Source: Sagittula stellata E-37 (GTDB lineage Bacteria; Pseudomonadota; Alphaproteobacteria; Rhodobacterales; Rhodobacteraceae). From it: a stretch of DNA of 64,000 nucleotides. The stretch spans positions 310,001-374,000 of the forward strand of contig NZ_CP155729.1 of the NCBI RefSeq assembly GCF_039724765.1, in the 5' to 3' direction. The notes under the pieces were generated by a model that saw only the letters and a list, made by a program, of their open reading frames with translations, made no database searches and was not told the origin of the DNA. Both the position numbers and the translations under genes were made by a program. Shown piece by piece: positions 1-46,508 of this stretch. Position 1 is the stretch's first letter. Each line of letters starts with the position of its first letter.

Positions 1-921
1 GCCAAAGAACCGCTTGGGCCTTTGCAGCGCGTTTGCATCGACACCACCGGTCAGAACCTTGCCCGAGGACGGGACAACAGTGTTGAAGGCTCTACCAAGT
101 CTTGTGATAGAGTCCAAAAGGATAACGACATCTCGTTTATGTTCGACGAGACGTTTGGCCTTTTCGATCACCATTTCGCTGACAGCAACGTGACGCGTGG
201 CAGGTTCGTCGAAGGTGGACGAAATGACCTCACCTTTCACCGAACGCTGCATGTCGGTGACTTCTTCCGGGCGTTCGTCGATCAGGAGAACGATCAGGTA
301 GCATTCCGGGTGGTTCTTTTCGATGGACGCCGCGATGTTTTGCAGCAGAACCGTCTTACCCGTGCGCGGCGGCGCGACAATCAGCGACCGTTGTCCCTTA
401 CCGATGGGACACACCAGGTCGATGATACGGGCGGAGCGATCCTTGATAGTCGGATCTTCGATCTCCATCTTCAGCCGTTCGTCCGGATACAGCGGCGTCA
501 GGTTGTCGAAAGCGATCTTGTGACGCGCGCGTTCCGGATCCTCGAAGTTGATCGCACCCACAGACACCAGGGCAAAGTAGCGCTCCTCGTTGTCAGGTGC
601 GCGGATCTCGCCCTCGATGCTGTCACCCGTCCGCAGAGAGTGTTTCCGGATCATGTCGGGTGACACGTAGATGTCGTCCGGACCGGGCAGGTAGTTCGCC
701 TCCGGAGAGCGGAGAAAACCGAAACCGTCCTGAAGCACTTCCAGAACGCCGTCCCCATAGATCAGCCAGCCCTCGTCGGCACGCTCCCGGAGGATCTGGA
801 ACATCATCTCGCCCTTGCGCATGGTCGAGGCGTTCTCGATCTCCAGCTCTTCCGCCATGGCCAGAAGGTCCTTGGGGCTTTGGGCTTTCAAATCGGCAAG
901 GTTCAGTTTTTCTTCGCTCAT
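1..921 (-). CDS. rho: Transcription termination factor Rho, N-terminal 307 residues (runs off left edge)
   Basis: Rho is the RNA-dependent hexameric helicase that ends transcription of untranslated RNA. I translated this frame from the complementary ATG at 919-921; it stays open to base 1, so the C-terminal part of the usual ~420 residues lies outside. The N-terminal helical Rho_N segment covers about residues 1-45. The cold-shock-like RNA-binding domain (about 50-125) contains [20 protein letters not shown]. The P-loop APPRTGKT lies at about 183-190, preceded by [13 protein letters not shown]. It points away from maf across a 537-bp gap. In related alphaproteobacteria rho is followed by mnmE-mnmG-rsmG-parA-parB, which would lie to the left; that is from memory, not seen here. 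Confidence 0.95.
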
Positions 922-1458
922 ACGCCACATCGCGACAACAAGGCGTGTCGCGCTTTCTTCGTTTCTAGGGAGAACATGATCCAGAACAGGACCGGGAGAG
1001 AGGTAGTCTCTCCGACCCTCCGAAGTCAATGCCCGACTTAGGGCCAGGCTTCGGGGGCCACCCAAGATACTTAAAATAGAAATTTAGAAAGGTATTTGAA
1101 GATGTATGGGGGGCTTGGTTCTGTGGATTAAGGAAACTTTAACACACTTACAAACATGCCACGAGTCTATGGAAAACTTGGTGGATCGTCTCGGGACGTC
1201 TGAGAATTCTTCTCAGAAAATCATTATATAACAGTAACTTGTAAAATTTCCGGTGTGTCTGTCCAGGCTTGGATAAGACCGGGATGTCCTGTCGCTGACG
1301 ACGTTTGTCACGCGGTATGAGTTATCCGTGTCAACATGGGCAAGCCCTGCGGAACAGGACATCGGAAATCGGGGTCTTTCCCGCGCTTGCATGTAGAACC
1401 GTTTTTTCGCACAAACGTCATCGATCCAGCCCACACACTCATACCAAGATTTATCCCC
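922..1458. other. Candidate chromosomal replication origin (oriC) between rho and maf
   Basis: No convincing gene lies in these 537 bases, and the flanking genes diverge. Two AT-rich patches stand out: 1067-1106 has 8 G/C in 40 and 1211-1250 has 9 in 40. DnaA-box-like 9-mers occur at 1122-1130 (TGTGGATTA, one mismatch to TGTGGATAA) and 1451-1459 (TTATCCCCA, one mismatch, overlapping the maf start). Weaker ones lie at 977-985 (TGATCCAGA, one mismatch to the Caulobacter G-box TGATCCACA), 1180-1188 and 1268-1276. A perfect CtrA-type site overlaps the 1122 box. In Caulobacter the origin also lies between the hemE/rho side and the maf-aroE-coaE-dnaQ side. No box is a perfect consensus, so this is inference. 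Confidence 0.55.
1128..1142. promoter_or_regulatory. CtrA-type binding site TTAA-N7-TTAA
   Basis: TTAA at 1128-1131, a 7-base spacer GGAAACT, and TTAA at 1139-1142 give an exact match to the full CtrA consensus of alphaproteobacteria. The left half shares three bases with the DnaA-box-like TGTGGATTA at 1122-1130. Overlap of CtrA and DnaA sites is the arrangement known from the Caulobacter origin. It could instead regulate rho, whose start is about 200 bases away. Confidence 0.55.
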
Positions 1459-2058
1459 ATGAAAGAGGACCTGATCCTCGCTTCCAGCTCCGAAATCCGC
1501 GCCAGTCTGCTCCGGTCCGCCGGTCTGAAGGTTGCGTCGGATGTTGCTCGAATCGATGAAGACATGATTCGGGAATCGCTGTTGGCCGAAGGCGCCACGC
1601 CGCGGGACATCGCTGATACCCTGGCAGAGGCAAAGGCGCAGAAGGTGTCGGGACGACACCCTGAGACGCTTGTCCTCGGATGCGATCAGGTTCTGGCTTT
1701 CAAGGGTGCGATCCTGTCGAAACCTTCCAGCCGGGAAGAGGCGCGCGAGCAACTTGCCGCCCTGCGCGGTGAGACACACCAACTGCTTTCCGCTGCCGTC
1801 ATCTATGAAGATTCAAAGCCAATATGGCGTCACGTGGGCACTGCTCGGCTGATGATGCGCGCTTTTTCAGACGCTTACGTCGAAGACTACCTCGACAGAA
1901 ACTGGCCGGATATCGGTACGTCGGTCGGTGGATACAAGCTTGAAAAGGAGGGTGTGCGGTTGTTCGCCCACGTCGATGGCAGCCACTTCACAATCCTCGG
2001 TTTGCCTTTGCTTGAATTGCTCAACTTCCTGTCCGTCAGAGGAACCATCTCCGCATGA
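1459..2058 (+). CDS. maf: Maf family nucleotide pyrophosphatase
   Basis: Maf proteins hydrolyse non-canonical nucleoside triphosphates to monophosphates in the cytoplasm. The product has 199 residues, normal for the family. It opens with [18 protein letters not shown], the Maf substrate-binding loop, and carries CDQVLAF near residue 75. The D-Q pair there is typical of the YceF-type (m7GTP-preferring) subgroup rather than the A-D-T of YhdE, so that specificity is likely. The frame is open about 120 bases upstream, but homology begins at this ATG. It overlaps aroE by ATGA, making it the first gene of a translationally coupled maf-aroE-coaE-dnaQ operon. Confidence 0.93.
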
Positions 2059-2888
2059 CCCTGCCTCGAATTCCCCTCGCCGCCGTCATCGGCAAGCCCA
2101 TTGCGCACTCGAGGTCCCCGCGCCTGTTTGCGCATTGGCTCAGGAAACATGGCATCCCGGGGCACTATATTCCGATCGAGGTTCCTGCCGACAAACTGGC
2201 TGAAACCATCCGGCTTTTGCCCGACCTGGGGTTCATGGGCGTCAATGTCACGATCCCCTACAAGGAGAAGATCCTCGAAATCGCCGATCTCGCCTCTGAC
2301 CGGGCGACGCTGATCGGGGCCGCCAACACGCTGATCTTCCGTAAGGACGGGATGATCCATGCAGACAACACCGACGGCTACGGCTTTTCCGAAAATCTCA
2401 GACAGTCGGCGCCGGACTGGGATCCGACTGCGGGCCCAGCGGTGGTTTTCGGGGCAGGGGGAGCGGCCCGCGCGGTCATCGCGTCGCTGATCGACGTGGG
2501 GGTGCCCGAAATCCGGCTGACCAACCGGACGCGGGTGCGTGCCGAACAGCTCCGGTCTGACTTTGGCAATCGCGTGCAGGTGCATGACTGGGTCCAGGCG
2601 GGCAACATCATCGAAGACTGCCGGACTGTGGTGAACACCACGTCGCTCGGCATGACCGGCAAGCCCGAGTTTCGCGTCCCGCTCGATGCGCTGGCACCGG
2701 ACATGGTGGTGTCCGACCTTGTCTATACACCCCTGCAGACCCGTCTGCTGCGGGAGGCGGAACAGGCGGGCAGCACAGTTGTCGACGGGCTTGGCATGTT
2801 GTTGCATCAGGCGGTGCCCGGTTTCGAGCGGTGGTTTGGCACCCGCCCGGAGGTAGACGAGGCGACACGCGCTGCCGTCCTGCGATGA
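2055..2888 (+). CDS. aroE: Shikimate dehydrogenase (NADP+)
   Basis: AroE reduces 3-dehydroshikimate to shikimate with NADPH in aromatic amino acid synthesis. The 277-residue product matches the family length. The shikimate-binding [13 protein letters not shown] is near the N terminus. The catalytic lysine is in [11 protein letters not shown] (about residue 70), and the partner aspartate is in ADNTDGYGF (about 106). The NADP-binding glycine loop is [11 protein letters not shown] (about 130), followed by [12 protein letters not shown]. The C-terminal GLGMLLHQA completes the fold. Its start overlaps the maf stop and its stop overlaps the coaE start, both as ATGA. Confidence 0.97.
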
Positions 2889-3478
2889 GGTTCAAACTGG
2901 GACTGACAGGGTCCATCGGTATGGGCAAATCTTCGACGGCCGCGATCTTTGCCGCCGAGGATTGCGCCGTTTGGGATGCCGACGCTGCAGTGCACCGGCT
3001 GTATTCCGCCGGAGGCGCTGCGGTCGGCCCGATCAGCGCGCGCTTTCCCGAAGCGGTCCAGAACGGCAAGGTTTCTCGCGACGTTCTCAAGACGATCATC
3101 GGCAGCGATCCAGAAGCGTTGCCCGATCTCGAGCGGATCGTTCACCCGCTGGTCCAGGCCGACCGAGAGATATTTGTTCGGGACAACGCCGACAAGATCG
3201 GGGTGTTCGACATTCCTTTGCTTTTCGAGACGGGCGGCGATGCAGAGATGGACGCAACCGCCTGCGTTTTTGTTTCACGTGAAATACAGCGAGAGCGGGT
3301 TCTGGCCCGTGGCACGATGACGGAAGCCGATCTTCAGCGCATTCTTGCCCGGCAATTGCCGTCCGAGGAAAAATGTGCCCGGTCGACATGGACCATCGAG
3401 ACAGATACGCCTGAACACGCGCGCGAACAGGTGTTGCGCATCCTGAACGAGATCGAGGAAAGGCTGACCGATGCGTGA
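2885..3478 (+). CDS. coaE: Dephospho-CoA kinase
   Basis: CoaE phosphorylates dephospho-CoA at the ribose 3' hydroxyl, the last step of coenzyme A synthesis. The start is set by the ATGA overlap with aroE and gives 197 residues, the usual size. The Walker A loop is [17 protein letters not shown] (about residues 6-22). It is followed by the conserved [10 protein letters not shown] of the CoA-binding domain and by IPLLFET, a strongly conserved family motif (about 108). It sits between aroE and dnaQ as in many alphaproteobacteria and overlaps dnaQ by 8 bases. Confidence 0.96.
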
Positions 3479-4160
3479 AATCGTACTCGATACGGAAACC
3501 ACGGGGTTCGAGCCGGAGCAGGGCGACCGCATCGTCGAAATCGGGGCCGTCGAGTTGTTCAATCACGTTCCGACCGGCGAGACCTATCACCAGTACATCA
3601 ATCCTGAACGGTCAATGCCGCAGGAGGCATTTGCCGTTCACGGGCTTGGCGACGATTTCCTCCGGGACAAGCCGGTCTTCGCCAAAATCGTCGATGAGTT
3701 CCGCACCTTCATCGGAGACTCGAAACTGGTGATCCACAACGCGGCCTTCGACGTGAAGTTCCTCAACGCCGAACTTCGCTGGGCCAACCGTCCAACCCTG
3801 GCGAAAGATTGCGCCATCGACACGCTGGATATTGCCCGGCGGAAGTTCCCGGGCTCGCCTGCGTCGCTCGACGCGCTTTGCCGCAGGTTCGGGATCGATA
3901 ACTCCTCCCGGACCTTGCACGGCGCCTTGCTCGACTCCGAAATCCTGGCAGAGGTCTACCTCGAACTCATCGGTGGCAAACAGCCCGATTTCGGTCTGAC
4001 GTCCGCGTCCAACACGCCGAGTGTCGGTGAAACAGTGACGAACTGGCGCCCGAAACCAAGGTCCACACCCTTGCCGTCGCGCCTGACGGACACGGAAAAG
4101 GCGGCTCACGCCGCCTTTGTCGAGAAGCTCGGGGAAAACGCGATCTGGAACCGGTCCTGA
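3471..4160 (+). CDS. dnaQ: DNA polymerase III epsilon subunit (proofreading 3'-5' exonuclease)
   Basis: The epsilon subunit removes misincorporated bases during replication. The 229-residue product shows the DEDDh exonuclease motifs: Exo[21 protein letters not shown] (residues 5-24), Exo[18 protein letters not shown] (about 87-102), and ExoIII-epsilon [16 protein letters not shown], whose H and D are the last two catalytic residues. The C-terminal tail (about 175-229) is the region expected to bind the polymerase alpha subunit. It is the last gene of the operon and converges with secB 16 bases downstream. Confidence 0.96.
4097..4118 (+). terminator. Hairpin inside the 3' end of dnaQ, possible terminator
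   Basis: AAAGGCGGC (4097-4105), a 4-base loop TCAC and GCCGCCTTT (4110-4118) form a perfect 9-bp stem. It lies about 45 bases before the dnaQ stop codon, and only three T follow the GC stem. It may limit read-through into the convergent secB gene, or it may simply be coding sequence. Confidence 0.25.
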
Positions 4161-4176
4161 TCGCGTTTCACTGATC

Positions 4177-4674
4177 TTATTGCGTCGGAGTGCTGGACGC
4201 TTCCTGCTGAGCGGCGGCCCGGCGCTGAAGCTCCGCACGGTACAGCGCAAGGAAGTCGATCGTTTCCAGGTTCAGCGGCGGGAAGCCACCGTCGCGGGAC
4301 ACGTCAGACACGATGCGGCGCACGAACGGGAAGATCATCCGCGGGCATTCGATCAGCAGGAACGGGTGAAGCTGGTCCTCGGGCACGTTCTCGATGTGGA
4401 ACACGCCCACGTAGTCGAGTTCGAGGATGAACAGCACTTCAGAGGATTCCTTGGACTTGGATTCCACCTTCAGCTTCATCACGACTTCGAACTGATGTTC
4501 CGGCGTCCGTTTCTTGGCATCGAGGTTGACCTGCACCTGAACGTCCGGCTGCACTTCTCCGGATACGCCCTTCTGGGAAAGGATGTTCTCGAAGGAAAGA
4601 TCACGGATAAACTGCGCAAGCACGTTCATCTTGGGCGGCTGAGGCGCCTGGGCTGCCCCGTTGGATTCTGCCAT
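4177..4674 (-). CDS. secB: Protein-export chaperone SecB
   Basis: SecB is a tetrameric cytoplasmic chaperone that keeps preproteins unfolded and passes them to SecA. The 165-residue product begins with a short variable segment and then NVLAQFIRDLSFENILSQKG, the conserved SecB start. Later come the typical FEVVMKLKVESKSKES strand region and IECPRMIFPFVRRIVSDVSR (about 112-131), the SecA-interacting and dimer region. The C-terminal NLETIDFLALYRA is also conserved. The location beside dnaQ and fxsA is the usual one in Rhodobacterales. Confidence 0.96.
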   Translation of the reverse strand: MAESNGAAQAPQPPKMNVLAQFIRDLSFENILSQKGVSGEVQPDVQVQVNLDAKKRTPEHQFEVVMKLKVESKSKESSEVLFILELDYVGVFHIENVPEDQLHPFLLIECPRMIFPFVRRIVSDVSRDGGFPPLNLETIDFLALYRAELQRRAAAQQEASSTPTQ

Positions 4675-4731
4675 GAATGGTACTCCGGTTGAATGTCTTG
4701 AGAGCTGGATTAGCAGGCACTGGTAGGTTTC

Positions 4732-5226
4732 TCAATGCCTCGTCCAGCCGGAACCGGGATGGTTGGGTGACTTGCCCTGCGGAACTTCGGTAAAATCGCC
4801 GTCGATTACCTCGTCGCGGGCAGAGGTCGGGTTATGGTGCGGGGGCCGCTGGGGTTCCGGACCCATCTGAAAACGGGTGACCGTGATGCGCTGACGCGCC
4901 CACCGCATCACGGCCAGACGGACGCCCGGCACGAGAAGGGTAAAGCCCACGGCGTCGGTGAAGAATCCCGGGGTCAGCAGAAGCGCGCCCGACAGAAGGA
5001 TCATGGCACCATGGGCCAACGGCTCACTGGGGTCCTGAAGTTCGGAAAAGCTGCGTCGCAGGTCTGCAAGTGCACGCGCGCCCTGAGACCGCACCAGATA
5101 CGTGCCGATAATCGCCGTAAGCACCACGATGGCCAAAGTCGGGAACAGCCCGATCAGCCCGCCCACCTGGATAAAAAGGGCGATCTCGATCAGCGGGACC
5201 ATCAGAAAGACCAGAAACAGCCACAT
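4732..5226 (-). CDS. fxsA: FxsA family cytoplasmic membrane protein
   Basis: FxsA is a small inner-membrane protein named for F-exclusion of phage T7; its general function is unclear. Three hydrophobic stretches are visible: WLFLVFLMVPLIEIALFIQV at the N terminus, then LFPTLAIVVLTAIIGTYLV, and AMILLSGALLLTPGFFTDAV in the middle. LTPGFFTDAVG is the hallmark of the family. The soluble tail (about 125-164) is polar. The ATG at 5226 was chosen because AAGGAGG lies 9 bases before it; the ATG at 5232 is too close to that site. It follows the divergent Tim44 gene and precedes secB. Confidence 0.9.
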   Translation of the reverse strand: MWLFLVFLMVPLIEIALFIQVGGLIGLFPTLAIVVLTAIIGTYLVRSQGARALADLRRSFSELQDPSEPLAHGAMILLSGALLLTPGFFTDAVGFTLLVPGVRLAVMRWARQRITVTRFQMGPEPQRPPHHNPTSARDEVIDGDFTEVPQGKSPNHPGSGWTRH

Positions 5227-5367
5227 GCGCATTCCTCCTTGACCAGCGTCTGAAGCATATCGGGTCAACGTACCGCATGGCCGCCGCCCGTGTGGACTTG
5301 TTCAGACACGTCACCTACATAGGAAGCCAAGCCCGAAGTTTCCATCCGTAGCCATCATGAGGCCCCG

Positions 5368-6027
5368 ATGCAGAACCCGCTCCTCCAGCTTCTCGTCCTG
5401 GCCGGCATAGCCGTCTTCCTAGTGCTGCGTTTGCGCAGTGTGCTGGGAACACGAGACGGGTTCGAGCGACCGACCCCTGCCGAAAAGAGCAAGGAAACGA
5501 CCTCGCGCCGCGAATTCGAGGTGATCGAAGGCGGTCCCGATCACGACATAACCGACCACGTCGCAGAAGGTACCGATGCCGCCAATGCACTGGCAGCGAT
5601 GAAACGGGTGGAGCCGAGCTTCTCCGTGTCGGAGTTCCTTGGCGGTGCGCGTGGCGCCTACGAGATGATCCTGATGGGGTTCGAACGTGGCGACATCGAA
5701 GGACTGAAGCCATTCCTCGCCGATGACGTTTTCGAGACCTTCTCCGAGGTGGTGGAGGCGCGGGAGTCCGAGGGCCTGACCATCGACGCGGATTTCGTCG
5801 GTGTGCGCGAGATGACGCTTGCCGGTGCATCCTTCGATCCCGACACGCGCGAGGCGGAAATCACGGTGCGCTACGTGGGCGAACTGACCTCTGTCGTGAA
5901 GAACGCCGAAGGCGAGATCGTCGAGGGCTCGCCCACCGCGGTGAAGCGCCAGAAGGACATCTGGACATATGCCCGCACCATGGGTGCCGACGATCCGAAC
6001 TGGCAACTGGTCGCCACGGACGAATGA
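5368..6027 (+). CDS. Tim44-domain membrane-anchored protein
   Basis: The 219-residue product has one N-terminal transmembrane segment (LLQLLVLAGIAVFLVLRLRS, residues 5-24). A charged linker follows, then a C-terminal Tim44-like domain (about 75-215) with FLGGARGAYEMILMGFERGD and LKPFLADDVFETF, both typical of bacterial Tim44 (TimA) proteins. Mitochondrial Tim44 tethers the import motor; the bacterial relatives are thought to act at the inner membrane, but their role is not settled. It lies divergent from fxsA-secB and overlaps mltA by ATGA, so it is probably expressed with cell-wall functions. Confidence 0.85.
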   Translation: MQNPLLQLLVLAGIAVFLVLRLRSVLGTRDGFERPTPAEKSKETTSRREFEVIEGGPDHDITDHVAEGTDAANALAAMKRVEPSFSVSEFLGGARGAYEMILMGFERGDIEGLKPFLADDVFETFSEVVEARESEGLTIDADFVGVREMTLAGASFDPDTREAEITVRYVGELTSVVKNAEGEIVEGSPTAVKRQKDIWTYARTMGADDPNWQLVATDE

Positions 6028-7064
6028 TCCGACTTGTCTTCGCGCTTTCGCTGGTTCTCTTACCCATGAGCGCCTCGGCGGAAGGCGAGGCCGAGACCTC
6101 GTACACGGTTCTCGATTTCGACGAACTCGAAGGCTGGGCGGAGGACGATCACTTCGCCGCGCTTGAGGTGTTCCGCAGCACCTGCGCCGACATGAATGAT
6201 CCGGACTGGCGGGTGCTGTGCAACGTCGCTTCGGCCACGGACGATGCACGTGGATTCTTCGAGTTGCTGTTCAGACCGGTCGTGATTGGCGATGGGGCCG
6301 AACCGCTGTTTACCGGTTATTTCGAGCCCGAACTTGACGGTGCGCCGTTCCGATCTGGTCGCTACCGGTATCCGATCTACGCCATGCCCCCTGAAGCGCG
6401 TCTCAATCGCCCGTGGCTGACACGGCGTGACATCCTCAAGTCGGGTGTCATGGACGGGCGCGGGTTGGAGATTGCCTGGGTCGACGATCCTGTCGAGCTG
6501 TTTTTCCTTCAGATACAGGGTTCTGGCCGTGTTCGCTTCCCGGACGGCCGTCACATTCGCGTGGGGTACGGCGGTTCGAACGGGCATGATTACCGCTCGA
6601 TCGGCAAGGAACTGGTTCGGCGCGGCCTGTTCACTGTGCATCAGGTGTCGGCCCAGGTCATCAAGGCTTGGGTGCGCAACAACCCGATGCTGGGCGAAGA
6701 GCTTCTGCTCCATAACAACAGCTACGTCTTCTTCCGCGAGGTGAGTGAAGTTCCGGCGGAGAAGGGACCGCTTGGGGCGATGAACCGGTCCATAACGGCG
6801 ATGCGGTCGATTGCGGTCGATCCGAAGTACACGCCGCTTGGCGCGCCGGTCTGGATCGAGAAGAAGGGCGAAACGCCGCTCAACCGCCTGATGATCGCGC
6901 AGGACACCGGCTCGGCCATCAAGGGGGCGCAGAGAGCCGACATCTTCTACGGAACCGGCGACGAAGCCGGGCGCACCGCGGGGGGCATCAAGGACACCGG
7001 CCGGATGGTCGTCCTGATGCCCATCCAGCGCGCCTATGCCTTCGCACCGGACTGGGTGCAATGA
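6024..7064 (+). CDS. mltA: Membrane-bound lytic murein transglycosylase A
   Basis: MltA cleaves peptidoglycan glycan strands to 1,6-anhydromuramyl products in the periplasm. The product has 346 residues. It starts with a signal peptide (RLVFALSLVLLPMSASA). No cysteine follows the signal region, so a lipid anchor is not evident. The barrel domain contains GYFEPELDGAPFRSGRYRYP (about 100-119) and LFFLQIQGSGRVRFPDG (about 156-172). The C-terminal 3D domain carries MIAQDTGSAIKGAQRADIFY with its three aspartates; the central one is the expected catalytic residue. It is translationally coupled to the Tim44 gene upstream and to the Smr gene downstream. Confidence 0.94.
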   Translation: MIRLVFALSLVLLPMSASAEGEAETSYTVLDFDELEGWAEDDHFAALEVFRSTCADMNDPDWRVLCNVASATDDARGFFELLFRPVVIGDGAEPLFTGYFEPELDGAPFRSGRYRYPIYAMPPEARLNRPWLTRRDILKSGVMDGRGLEIAWVDDPVELFFLQIQGSGRVRFPDGRHIRVGYGGSNGHDYRSIGKELVRRGLFTVHQVSAQVIKAWVRNNPMLGEELLLHNNSYVFFREVSEVPAEKGPLGAMNRSITAMRSIAVDPKYTPLGAPVWIEKKGETPLNRLMIAQDTGSAIKGAQRADIFYGTGDEAGRTAGGIKDTGRMVVLMPIQRAYAFAPDWVQ

Positions 7065-36791: not shown

Positions 36792-37139
36792 TCACGCGCG
36801 ACGCTCCAGGCGCTGCACGTCCGGAGCGTCCAGGCTGTGCTTTTTCCCTTTAGAATCGTAGGTTTCCACGGATTTCCGAACGCGGTTGAGGTCACCCAGC
36901 CGAGCAGCGACGTTGCGAATTCCGGCCAGGGCCGCGTCGAACAACTCCTGGTTCCGGCGCAGGCCGTCACTTAGCGGCGCCACCGTCTGGCGGTCCAGCG
37001 GCAGATCATGCAAGGAACCGATAAGGCGCTGTTTCTCTTCCAGAAGCTCCGCAATCCGATCGAAGTCGCCATTGATGAGCGCCGTCCGCTCAGCATCGAT
37101 CAACTCTTCCAGTTGTTGTGATAGTGTGCGCTCATCCAT
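36792..37139 (-). CDS. FlgN-like export chaperone candidate
   Basis: The 115-residue product is helical and charged, with QQLEELIDAERTALINGDFD followed by RIAELLEEKQRLI (about 8-40), which resembles FlgN, the chaperone for hook-junction proteins FlgK and FlgL. The middle GLRRNQELFDAALAGIRNVA fits the family too. No signal or membrane segment is present. It overlaps the rod-binding flgJ gene by 8 bases. FlgN proteins are poorly conserved, so position and layout carry much of the assignment. Confidence 0.72.
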   Translation of the reverse strand: MDERTLSQQLEELIDAERTALINGDFDRIAELLEEKQRLIGSLHDLPLDRQTVAPLSDGLRRNQELFDAALAGIRNVAARLGDLNRVRKSVETYDSKGKKHSLDAPDVQRLERRA

Positions 37140-37401
37140 TGGCTCTCTCCTTCAGTGTCTCGAAGATCATTTCTGTAAGTCCCACCCCGCCAGTTGCCGC
37201 CATCCGTCGCGCCTGTTCGAGCCGCAACAGGGACGAAAACTGGTCCTCCCCCGCACCACCACCGAACCCTTCCGGTGTTTCCCCTACGCCGGCCGCCTTC
37301 AGCATTTCCGCCAGGAAGTTCGCTTCCAGCTCCAACGCGGCAGCACGAAGGTTCTGTTCGCTACCACGCGCGGAAAGAGGCAAGTCAGGTGTCAGTTCCA
37401 T
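37132..37401 (-). CDS. flgJ: Rod-binding protein, FlgJ N-terminal domain only
   Basis: An 89-residue protein that matches only the rod-binding half of FlgJ; the muramidase half found in enterics is absent, as usual in alphaproteobacteria. Motifs are ALELEANFLAEMLKAAGVGE and LLRLEQARRMAATGGVGLTE, the latter ending in MIFETL like other rod-binding proteins. The ATG at 37401 has TTGGAG about 9 bases before it, and a TTG five codons upstream is an alternative. It is divergent from fliK across a 111-base gap. Confidence 0.85.
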   Translation of the reverse strand: MELTPDLPLSARGSEQNLRAAALELEANFLAEMLKAAGVGETPEGFGGGAGEDQFSSLLRLEQARRMAATGGVGLTEMIFETLKERANG

Positions 37402-37512
37402 GGCCAATGTCTCCAATTCGACTCAGTTGGACCCTTCTGCCGCGAGTCCAGTAAAGAACTGGTAAGGATGTTGGCCGTACGTTCCAGTAGCGGAAGAACT
37501 CCCGGAGCTGTA

Positions 37513-40062
37513 ATGATCATCCATCCGACGAACCAAACGGGCCCGAATGGGACTTCTGGACGCAATGGCCAGAATCAAAACACCAATCTTGAAAATCTTC
37601 TTACTCAGACTTTCGAAAATGAGTATCAGGCGGAAGCGGATGACCCTGTCGGGTCAAAAATTCGGATTGTTGATGAAGGCGTGAGAACCACACCCGCCAA
37701 ATCAGGTACTCTCGAGGCAAACGTGAGTGATTCTGAAAGGTCTGACTCAGAGCATGTTGAAATTGAAGATTCGACAGAAATCGATCTTGACATTGATGCC
37801 TACCTTATCGAGGTGCCGAAAAAGCTCCCCCAAAAAACTGCGCGTTCAAAAACAGAGTTTGTGGATCTGATTGCTTCAAAACCCTTGACTGGCCAGGAGT
37901 TTTCAGACCAGTACAGCGGCACCTTTGAGGTCTCTTATGCGACGGGAAACGGCCACAAGCCGAGTTCTGAAAAGACGCTGGTCAATAATATGGACAGTTC
38001 CATCGATAAATATCAGTCAGAGTTTTTGTACGCCAGATCAATAGAAGATGGCAGGTCCGATAATACACACGATAGCGGGAAGGCAATTGAATCTGGACTT
38101 CAATTCAAACGCAAAGCGTTTGCATCCGAATCCAATATCAGAGCGGATCTCGGGGACAAAAACCAAACTCTCGTAGAGGATGTACGGACAGCCGAAGAAA
38201 AGGTGGAGTCATATTTCCATGACGAATTGAGGAAAGTAACTGATCTCAGAGAGAAAATTTCAGATCAAGACAGTATGATTGTGGAGGCAGGGTACATAGG
38301 ACATACTTCCTCCTTCAATTCAAAAAATGAAGGGGCAGAAACGAGATTCTCTACCCGATCAATTTCTAATAGAGAAAACTGGAAAGTGGAAGAGAACCGT
38401 GGCGGTAAACGAGAGAGCGGCCAAAGTGCTTATCCAGTAAATTCGAATCTGGAGAAATTACCTTTGCAAACGGTCTCCCGAAGTTCAGGCATGGAAGACG
38501 CGGAAAACATAAGTCATATTAATAAAATGTCAGAAAGCGTGCCAAGTCGGCGCATCGTATCAAAAACCGCGGTGATCCCAAGGCATGAAGAATCAAAGGA
38601 ACCACATCAGCCCTTTGGGTCGGTTCGCACCGCAAGAGATGGCGTGATTTCTACTGATATGTCCCTTGAGACGCCAATACTGCGAAATGAGCCAGCGGAG
38701 GAAGGAGGTTTCGTGGGCCTCACGAATGCCTCTTCTATAGACCGCAGTACAGGTGAATCGAGCGCATATCAAAAAAACGTTGTCAACGCCGAGGTTGCCG
38801 GCGTTGAAGCGATACTTCCCGGTCGAGCGGGATATGGAAGATCGGTTGACCGAGATGCTTCAAAAAGTAGGTTTGAGATTGGAAACGCCACACGTGGAAT
38901 CGGCGCAAATGAAAAATTAGAACGCGATCCGAAGTTACCGAATGTTGTGATTCATAATGTCCAATTCCTAGAGAAAAGCCAAGACGTTACAGTAAAGAAC
39001 GATTCCACTCCGCTGGAACGGACAACTCGCGGCGAGCCGGAAATTAGTAGTACTGGAGGTAAGGACTTCGATTACCAGAAAAAAATGCCTGCTGGCGATG
39101 TCGGGGTCTTGGATAGGGGAGACACAGCCGGTCTTAATATCGGGACCGAAACGTCGCTGAGTGTCCCCGCCGATCCTCTGCCGTCTCTGGATTCGAAGTT
39201 CTTTGATGTGCAGCCTAAACACAGAGAATGGCCAGTAAATTCCGTCGCGATCGATTCTCGGCCGATTCTTCAAAGCCAAACCGAAACGTTTAACCCGTTG
39301 AAAGCCGCAGCTCGAAATACCGTCTTCGAAAGCAGTTCCGTGCAGAAATCGGCACCTCTCGAGACAGTTGTCGTCCGTCAGGTGATGAAGATTGACGAGC
39401 GTGAAAACACTGTCACCCCGCGGGCCAGTGATGCCGATACTGATGGCAAAGCTACAATGGGCGAAATTTTTTACGCGTCTGCGCCTCGTCCTGCCGCCCG
39501 ACCCAATTTTGAGCAGGCGCCCGGTATGGTTGGGAATCCCGCTGTCCTCTCACAGAATGTGCCGCATGACACTCCCGACGACGAGCCCAAAGGAAGCGAT
39601 ATTACCTTTGGAGGTTCGCAATCCGGCGGAACGATGCAGGCAACCCATGCCGGCGCACCTCAACACCAATCGATTCTCAGGTTCGACGGCAATGCAGTGA
39701 TCCGGCAAGTAACGGAGGCATTTGCGCGTTTGAGCGACCAAACGGTCGAGCTTCGTCTGGCGCCGGAAGAGCTCGGCCGGATCCGAATGTATCTGCATTC
39801 CGGCGAGCACGGCATCGTGGTCAACATCCAGGCGGATCGGACAGAGACGTTGGACCTGATGCGGCGCCATGTCGATGAACTGGCGCGGAACCTGGCGGAC
39901 GCAGGCTATGAAAATGCCGGGTTCACCTTTGGCGACGACCAGCGGCAGCGCGACACGTCCCTTGGAGATCCGTTGGATCTGGTTCCTGCCGTGGACGAAG
40001 AACTCGCGCCTCTGCCGAGCATTGAAACCGATGGGGCCGACGGCCTCGACATACGGATGTGA
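37513..40062 (+). CDS. fliK: Flagellar hook-length control protein FliK, long AT-rich central region
   Basis: FliK measures hook length and triggers the FlhB switch. The 849-residue product is identified by its C-terminal domain (about 720-820): VTEAFARLSDQTVELRLAPE followed by ELGRIRMYLHSGEHGIVVNI and AGYENAGFTF, the Flg_hook pattern. The first ~700 residues look disordered, rich in S, E, K and N, with no known domain. Base use changes sharply there: 38221-38280 has 21 G/C in 60 and 38341-38400 has 24, against 38 at 39841-39900. The ATG at 37513 follows GGAGCTGTA; the frame is open upstream over flgJ and the FlgN-like gene, which I treat as antisense. flgD follows after 6 bases. Confidence 0.85.
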   Translation: MIIHPTNQTGPNGTSGRNGQNQNTNLENLLTQTFENEYQAEADDPVGSKIRIVDEGVRTTPAKSGTLEANVSDSERSDSEHVEIEDSTEIDLDIDAYLIEVPKKLPQKTARSKTEFVDLIASKPLTGQEFSDQYSGTFEVSYATGNGHKPSSEKTLVNNMDSSIDKYQSEFLYARSIEDGRSDNTHDSGKAIESGLQFKRKAFASESNIRADLGDKNQTLVEDVRTAEEKVESYFHDELRKVTDLREKISDQDSMIVEAGYIGHTSSFNSKNEGAETRFSTRSISNRENWKVEENRGGKRESGQSAYPVNSNLEKLPLQTVSRSSGMEDAENISHINKMSESVPSRRIVSKTAVIPRHEESKEPHQPFGSVRTARDGVISTDMSLETPILRNEPAEEGGFVGLTNASSIDRSTGESSAYQKNVVNAEVAGVEAILPGRAGYGRSVDRDASKSRFEIGNATRGIGANEKLERDPKLPNVVIHNVQFLEKSQDVTVKNDSTPLERTTRGEPEISSTGGKDFDYQKKMPAGDVGVLDRGDTAGLNIGTETSLSVPADPLPSLDSKFFDVQPKHREWPVNSVAIDSRPILQSQTETFNPLKAAARNTVFESSSVQKSAPLETVVVRQVMKIDERENTVTPRASDADTDGKATMGEIFYASAPRPAARPNFEQAPGMVGNPAVLSQNVPHDTPDDEPKGSDITFGGSQSGGTMQATHAGAPQHQSILRFDGNAVIRQVTEAFARLSDQTVELRLAPEELGRIRMYLHSGEHGIVVNIQADRTETLDLMRRHVDELARNLADAGYENAGFTFGDDQRQRDTSLGDPLDLVPAVDEELAPLPSIETDGADGLDIRM

Positions 40063-46307: not shown

Positions 46308-46508
46308 ATGTCCATGAAACAGACCGGGTCAATGGACCTGCGCACCGAAGGGACATCGGGCGCGGGAAGCCGTGGATCGTCGGAGCAGTTGCTCCACACC
46401 TCGAACCTTACGGGTTTCGAGCGGGCTGTTTTGTTCCTCATCGCCCGTGACCGCGTCCGTCGGCAGGCGGAGAGCAGGAACGGAACTGAGGACACAGTTG
46501 GCGGATGA
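46308..46508 (+). CDS. Possible 66-codon ORF coupled to dnaA
   Basis: An ATG frame of 66 codons (internal segment LLHTSNLTGFERAVLFLIAR) ends in TGA overlapping the dnaA ATG as ATGA (46505-46508). dnaA has no close ribosome site of its own (GAGGA is 12 bases away), so coupled translation is possible. By my count about 70 percent of third codon positions are G or C, between non-coding and the clearly coding neighbours. AGGGG lies 12 bases before the first ATG, a weak site. I do not recognise the protein. The rest of the 46086-46504 gap shows no DnaA box and no other gene. Confidence 0.3.
   Translation: MSMKQTGSMDLRTEGTSGAGSRGSSEQLLHTSNLTGFERAVLFLIARDRVRRQAESRNGTEDTVGG

Follow-up and report, generated by a model that had tools for sequence, protein, structure and literature searches.

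The intergenic region between rho and maf

The window analysed here is a 64-kb stretch of DNA (C1:310001-374000) from contig C1, which comprises 4,513,089 bases and is one of 5 contigs of a 5.29-Mb genome. Its left end carries the 5' part of rho (1..921, minus strand), recognised by open reading frame (ORF) reading and a rho model. On the other side lies maf (1459..2058, plus strand), followed by aroE, coaE and dnaQ, and then by secB in the opposite orientation. Since rho reads leftward from an ATG at 921 and maf rightward from an ATG at 1459, the 537 bp between them (922..1458, no strand) form a gap between diverging genes, which contains the proposed replication origin (oriC); its core, according to the family profile described below, spans 1072-1463. 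The rho frame is open upstream to a TTG at 1065, and the rho model starts a few residues past the ATG at 921. The initial annotation of this DNA had described a long non-coding gap where flanking genes diverge, with maf-aroE-coaE-dnaQ on its right, and this gene order was borne out. An Rfam scan of window positions 1-5000 returned a single match, below the family threshold and inside dnaQ, which is taken as chance.

The G+C content of the gap is 0.49, and that of the window is mostly 0.57-0.69 per kb. The exception is an AT-rich island at window positions 37000-39000 (0.523 then 0.457 per kb), which lacks extreme 40-base patches and may be inserted DNA. Stretches of 40 bases with at most 11 G+C form only two clusters in the 64-kb window, both inside the rho/maf gap. 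As annotated initially, there are two AT-rich patches, with stretches starting at 1063-1069 and 1205-1211 and each falling to 8 G+C per 40. Patch 1 (1063..1108, minus strand; 8-9 G+C per 40) is the proposed DNA unwinding element, and patch 2 (1205..1250) has no assigned strand.

No perfect DnaA box TTATCCACA occurs in the 64-kb window. Six sites have one mismatch, and two of these lie in the gap: TAATCCACA at 1122..1130 (minus strand), the proposed anchor beside the unwinding element, and TTATCCCCA at 1451..1459 (plus strand), which reaches the maf start. Three further boxes in the gap have two mismatches, namely a box at 977, TTTTCCATA at 1168..1176 (minus strand) and TTATCCAAG at 1268..1276 (minus strand). 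Two decayed boxes with three mismatches, TTACAAACA at 1148..1156 and TTATCCGTG at 1322..1330, are on the plus strand. The two stronger and three weaker boxes claimed at the outset are thus present, but the box at 977 falls outside the cluster that is shared by the family.

Conservation of the gap within and beyond the family

A Maf-family match was found in 160 of 160 Rhodobacteraceae genomes, one per genus; in ten of them the match is weak (E above 1e-20) and perhaps a paralogue. Upstream of maf, rho is present in 58 of the 60 loci fetched, with one contig ending early and one locus in which no rho was found, as well as in all ten genomes with maf on a 3.2-4.4 Mb contig. For the counts below, 117 family gaps were used. 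These omit L092 (identical to the L059 gap), L053 and L057 (second copies), G131 (identical to L076), L161, L165, L166 and L168 (extra genes or no rho found), and G089 and G095 (extra genes). Near relatives were otherwise kept, so the gaps are not fully independent, and for many loci counting ended short of the maf start codon, so that some last boxes, including that of the window, are missed.

The 117 gaps contain 332 boxes with at most one mismatch (11.3 expected from shuffles) and 52 perfect boxes (0.65 in shuffles). At least one box with no more than one mismatch occurs in 113 gaps and at least three in 69, compared with which the window, with no perfect and two one-mismatch boxes, is weaker than the family norm. 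The four gaps devoid of such boxes are L086, L164, L179 and L203; three of them (L086, L164 and L203) still have the motif CATCATC. A clustering of DnaA boxes above chance, one feature by which a DnaA-dependent oriC is recognised, is therefore observed, and the adjacent AT-rich region provides another, a putative site of unwinding. In 800 kb around maf in ten relatives, 33 of 142 one-mismatch boxes fall in the last 560 bp before maf, where about one was expected (summed by hand). GANTC and GATC are not enriched in the 117 gaps. K-mers such as GCCATCCA, which appeared enriched at first, left the top ranks once hemJ was removed.

The boxes also recur at fixed distances before maf. On the minus strand they concentrate at -350 to -330, -300 to -290 and -200 to -190, and on the plus strand at -320 to -300, -160 and -30 to -10. 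Four of the five gap boxes with at most two mismatches occupy family positions, the exception being 977. Specifically, the boxes at 1122 (-337), 1168 (-291) and 1268 (-191) match the minus-strand positions, and the box at 1451 (-8) the peak just before maf. Of the decayed boxes, 1148 (-311) falls on a plus-strand peak and 1322 (-137) on the edge of one. Likewise, the AT content of the family peaks at -390 to -360 and -250 to -220, and patches 1 and 2 fall on these two peaks, respectively.

In 864 kb of the 5.29-Mb genome, a box-weight matrix built from relatives was summed over 42,093 overlapping 537-bp stretches, and the stretch starting at 961 ranks first (2172; next 1654). By a simple site count over the same 864 kb the gap is unexceptional, with 478 stretches equalling its four sites, a tally which omits its box at 1451. 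Furthermore, a profile built from 113 family gaps, excluding the genus of the window, has its sole significant match in the sampled 864 kb at 1072-1463 (E 1.3e-28; next E 5.4), the right edge of which may take in a few maf bases.

Alternatively, the gap might do no more than drive rho and maf from a double promoter whose transcription is regulated by DnaA, with replication beginning elsewhere near parAB. The rho side of the gap does contain a stretch conserved in the alignment with relatives, with GTCAAT and CAGAACAGG blocks, which in our reading resembles a promoter. However, in 29 of the first 54 loci rho is separated from the gap by hemJ, and there the 351-423 bp non-coding block with the boxes stays beside maf, away from rho. 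The same separation is found in the divergent members L161, L166 and G095, with the order rho-hemJ-hemE-gap-PPSR-maf (from translations; supported by Pfam for hemE and PPSR of L161), in which the boxes sit in the hemE-PPSR gap. Together with the search of the sampled 864 kb, which gave no higher-scoring stretch and no other profile match, these gene orders make a mere double promoter improbable. Two additional members, L165 and G089, have kept hemE and lost PPSR, as judged by translations. In G095, an AT-rich patch of down to 4 G+C per 40 was noticed about 2380-2440 bp before maf (L131); its position is within the open frame of hemJ and not in the proposed origin gap.

These gene orders connect the gap to the origin of Caulobacter crescentus, Cori, in which the interval between hemE and COG1806 is described as holding several DnaA boxes and 40 bp of AT-rich DNA (PMC1914354). 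Of 95 genomes from across the class, 66 gave a match to PPSR, which corresponds to COG1806, and the 30 best PPSR places, none from Rhodobacteraceae, were taken as the outside-family set. In 28 of these 30 loci hemE diverges from PPSR, its first matched residue being 272-1092 bp away, and maf is present in 25. In 26 of the 30, the 900 bp before PPSR include one or more boxes with no more than one mismatch. The genus-free profile matches the 700-bp stretches upstream of PPSR with E ≤0.01 in 18 of 30, and in none of 30 in each of the reversed, three shuffled and one coding control sets; these E-values refer to a small set.

In the genome studied here, hemE is located at C1:4503872, away from the gap, a UPF0093/HemJ-family gene at C1:567391 is not beside rho, and PPSR was not found. 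The initial annotation had stated that rho and maf as neighbours match the Caulobacter origin. The resemblance is real by way of the relatives, but the flanks given for Caulobacter are hemE and COG1806 (PMC1914354), in place of which the window gap has rho and maf. Of CtrA sites, five in Cori, the gap has one perfect example, and it lacks a match to the consensus for IHF, a site for which is a further mark of this type of origin. The comparisons support the reading of the gap as a Caulobacter-type origin from whose flanks the old genes have probably gone; homology rests on the 30 PPSR loci, and the likeness to Cori itself on its published description. The order of the gene losses was inferred from gene orders, the distribution of which suggests an origin that holds its position as hemE, PPSR and hemJ disappear from around it.

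Chromosomal setting and competing locations

GC skew was sampled in 43 unevenly spaced stretches of 20 kb, three of them from the window. On the arm that runs from 2.70 Mb round to 290 kb, 16 of 19 stretches have negative values; on the other arm, between 290 kb and 2.62 Mb, 23 of 24 are positive. The second turn, at 2.62-2.70 Mb, lies near the antipode of the gap at 2.57 Mb. The chromosome-wide skew check that had been proposed thus gives turns in the neighbourhood of the gap and on the opposite side of the chromosome, but the local cumulative minimum over 124 kb falls 34 kb to the left of the gap, at C1:277171, so the skew supports the region and not the base. This offset is a point in favour of initiation elsewhere near parAB, with the gap as a promoter region only. 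In 80-kb stretches of ten relatives the skew minimum is within 2 kb of the gap in two, G158 and G095 show no clean skew step, and in G098 (L138-L141) the values stay negative to either side of rho-maf, strongly so in several 10-kb bins. Pinpointing the origin by local cumulative skew, over 124 kb here and 80 kb in the relatives, did not locate the gap and was counted against it. A consensus for dif gave no match with three mismatches allowed, so the terminus rests on skew. In the sampled stretch L033 (C1:1800001-1820000) a run of about 2 kb, at about 5000-7000, had no G or C counted and is taken as masked or unknown bases.

A further landmark is parS, the binding site of ParB. When one mismatch is allowed, the whole genome matches it only at C1:299757, 306434, 308339 (exact) and 313271, all within 12 kb of the gap. 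The last of these has one mismatch and lies inside coaE, on the right-arm side of the gap (window 3271..3286, no strand), and the other three lie to the left, beyond the edge of the window, at distances of 2.6 to 11.2 kb from the gap. The proposed origin is thereby flanked by four parS-like sites. The best chromosomal ParB match, at C1:304637, is also within 12 kb of the gap. Left of rho, mnmE was identified by Pfam, and mnmG, rsmG and parA were assigned from ORF translations only. The search for mnmE, mnmG, parA, parB and parS on this side, suggested together with the origin, was accordingly successful.

What is directly observed is the base composition, the DnaA boxes and the positions that they share with the family, the gene order, the coarse skew and the parS sites; what decides the placement of the origin at the gap is how this locus compares with the 117 gaps of the family and with loci from other families of the Alphaproteobacteria. 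With family boxes, profile, ParB/parS and coarse skew in agreement, the initial proposal that the rho/maf gap is the chromosomal replication origin is supported, with a probability of roughly 0.94; from these observations we infer DnaA binding, the patch that melts, and initiation itself.

A location beside dnaA, as in many bacteria, is far less credible. The gene begins near 46505, at the distance of 45 kb noted initially, which is within the coarse resolution of the skew. Its upstream region, noted initially as having none of the features of the gap, has two two-mismatch boxes within 600 bp and no 40-base stretch with fewer than 14 G+C. In addition, the parS sites are 43-57 kb from dnaA.

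An origin within mnmG-parB is similarly hard to sustain. A search for the motif TGTTTCACG could place it there, and this is one of the three DnaA boxes (TTATCCACA, TGTTTCACG and TGTGGATAT) used in a survey of Rhodobacteraceae, in which oriCs of 101 of 109 strains were predicted by Ori-Finder, skew minimum, local GC minimum and parAB proximity (PMC6699656). However, TGTTTCACG is identical to the left nine bases of parS and occurs once in the 117 family gaps, and boxes of the TTATCCACA type cluster in the rho/maf gap. One of the motifs that this survey treated as DnaA boxes is thus half of parS, and predictions that rely on it may be drawn to parS clusters. The published predictions are not claimed to be wrong.

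The predicted oriCs of Rhodobacteraceae, including that of Rhodobacter sphaeroides, resemble the rho/maf gap in being near parAB and the skew turn (PMC6699656; PMC6209633; PMC6315104). The oriC of Paracoccus yeei is described as an AT-rich site of 406 bp between genes, which has three putative DnaA boxes and lies 965 kb from dnaA (PMC6209633). The portions of these papers examined name neither the flanking genes nor an unwinding element. Ori-Finder left several candidate sites in many alphaproteobacterial genomes, and the use of parAB as an anchor has been suggested (PMC8116508). In the literature searched, the rho/hemJ-maf gap is not named as the origin of Rhodobacterales. The origin is of a known kind, and its base-level detail was not found in the literature examined. 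For a large family of marine and phototrophic bacteria, the gap offers a base-level address of the chromosomal origin together with a list of its parts.

Proposed unwinding element and CtrA-type site

In many family loci a common layout was recognised left of the box near -340. Read on the minus strand, it consists of the box, a spacer, CCCTAC, CATCATCATC and a pyrimidine-rich AT stretch; CATCATC is present in 62 of the 117 gaps. A box with at most two mismatches followed by at least two ATC triplets within 30 bases was found on the minus strand in 65 of 117 gaps (0.9 in shuffles) and on the plus strand in five. The spacer is 20-24 bases long in 38 of the 65 loci with this ATC element. In the window the element is degenerate (CCCCCCATACATCTTCAAATACC) and is formed by patch 1 together with the bases up to 1121, read on the minus strand.

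The layout resembles the basal unwinding system (BUS) described for Bacillus subtilis, among others, in which a DnaA box and a spacer are followed by opposite-strand triplets with a central A; the published rule demands a spacer of at most 16 and three or more such triplets (PMC8287927, PMC10721633). The family shares the order of box, spacer and triplets, the central A on the opposite strand and the run into AT-rich DNA. It differs in that the triplets read ATC along the strand of the box and 3'-TAG-5' on its complement, whereas those of the BUS are usually 3'-GAT-5', and in that the spacer of 20-24 bases exceeds the published 16. The 1122 box, with two triplets only and a spacer of 18, fails the three-triplet rule, and the weaker 1168 box passes a loose version. 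A generic BUS rule is satisfied in 71 of 117 family gaps (17.8 in shuffles) and in 46 of 117 on the other strand; given this weak specificity, reliance was placed on the ATC form.

From this arrangement a course of initiation can be proposed. DnaA would bind the box at 1122-1130 and the weaker boxes to its right, as far as the one that reaches the maf start. Starting at the 1122 box, it would extend leftward over the triplet and AT-rich stretch at 1063-1121, which would melt and take the helicase. Forks would depart both ways, co-directional with rho and maf, and ParB on the parS sites about 2-11 kb away would move the copies apart.

A perfect CtrA-type site, TTAA-N7-TTAA, is located at 1128..1142 (no strand) and overlaps the anchor box at 1122-1130 by three bases. 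The spacing of seven is distinctive in this genome, with eight sites in 864 kb and 0-1 for each of seven other spacings. It is less distinct in 800 kb of ten relatives (nine sites; other spacings 1-5), and before PPSR in other families three such sites were counted (other spacings 0-1). The 117 family gaps contain 14 perfect sites in 14 loci, compared with 0-3 for nine other spacings and 1.75 in shuffles, and 76 sites with one mismatch (other spacings 32-57; shuffles 33.95). A gene for CtrA is present in the genome, as found with a Rhodobacteraceae model. Since a perfect site is absent from 103 of the 117 gaps, and that of the congener G003 carries one mismatch (read from the alignment), CtrA is regarded as a lead and not as a family rule. 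CtrA is reported not to be essential in Rhodobacter capsulatus (PMC2877005). The consensus WATCAANNNNTTR for IHF has no match in the gap, and over the family gaps nine matches were found with 3.5 expected.

Tentatively, and at odds that are rather against it, Rhodobacteraceae origins might share a lineage-specific unwinding module, consisting of a DnaA box, a spacer of about 20, ATC triplets and a pyrimidine-rich AT stretch, to which is added, here and in a minority of other genera, the direct silencing of the origin by CtrA competing with DnaA for the anchor box. The position of the CtrA site over that box makes testable the old question of whether CtrA gates replication outside Caulobacter. 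Comparable overlaps occur with a one-mismatch box in L072 and L091, and with a two-mismatch box in L064.
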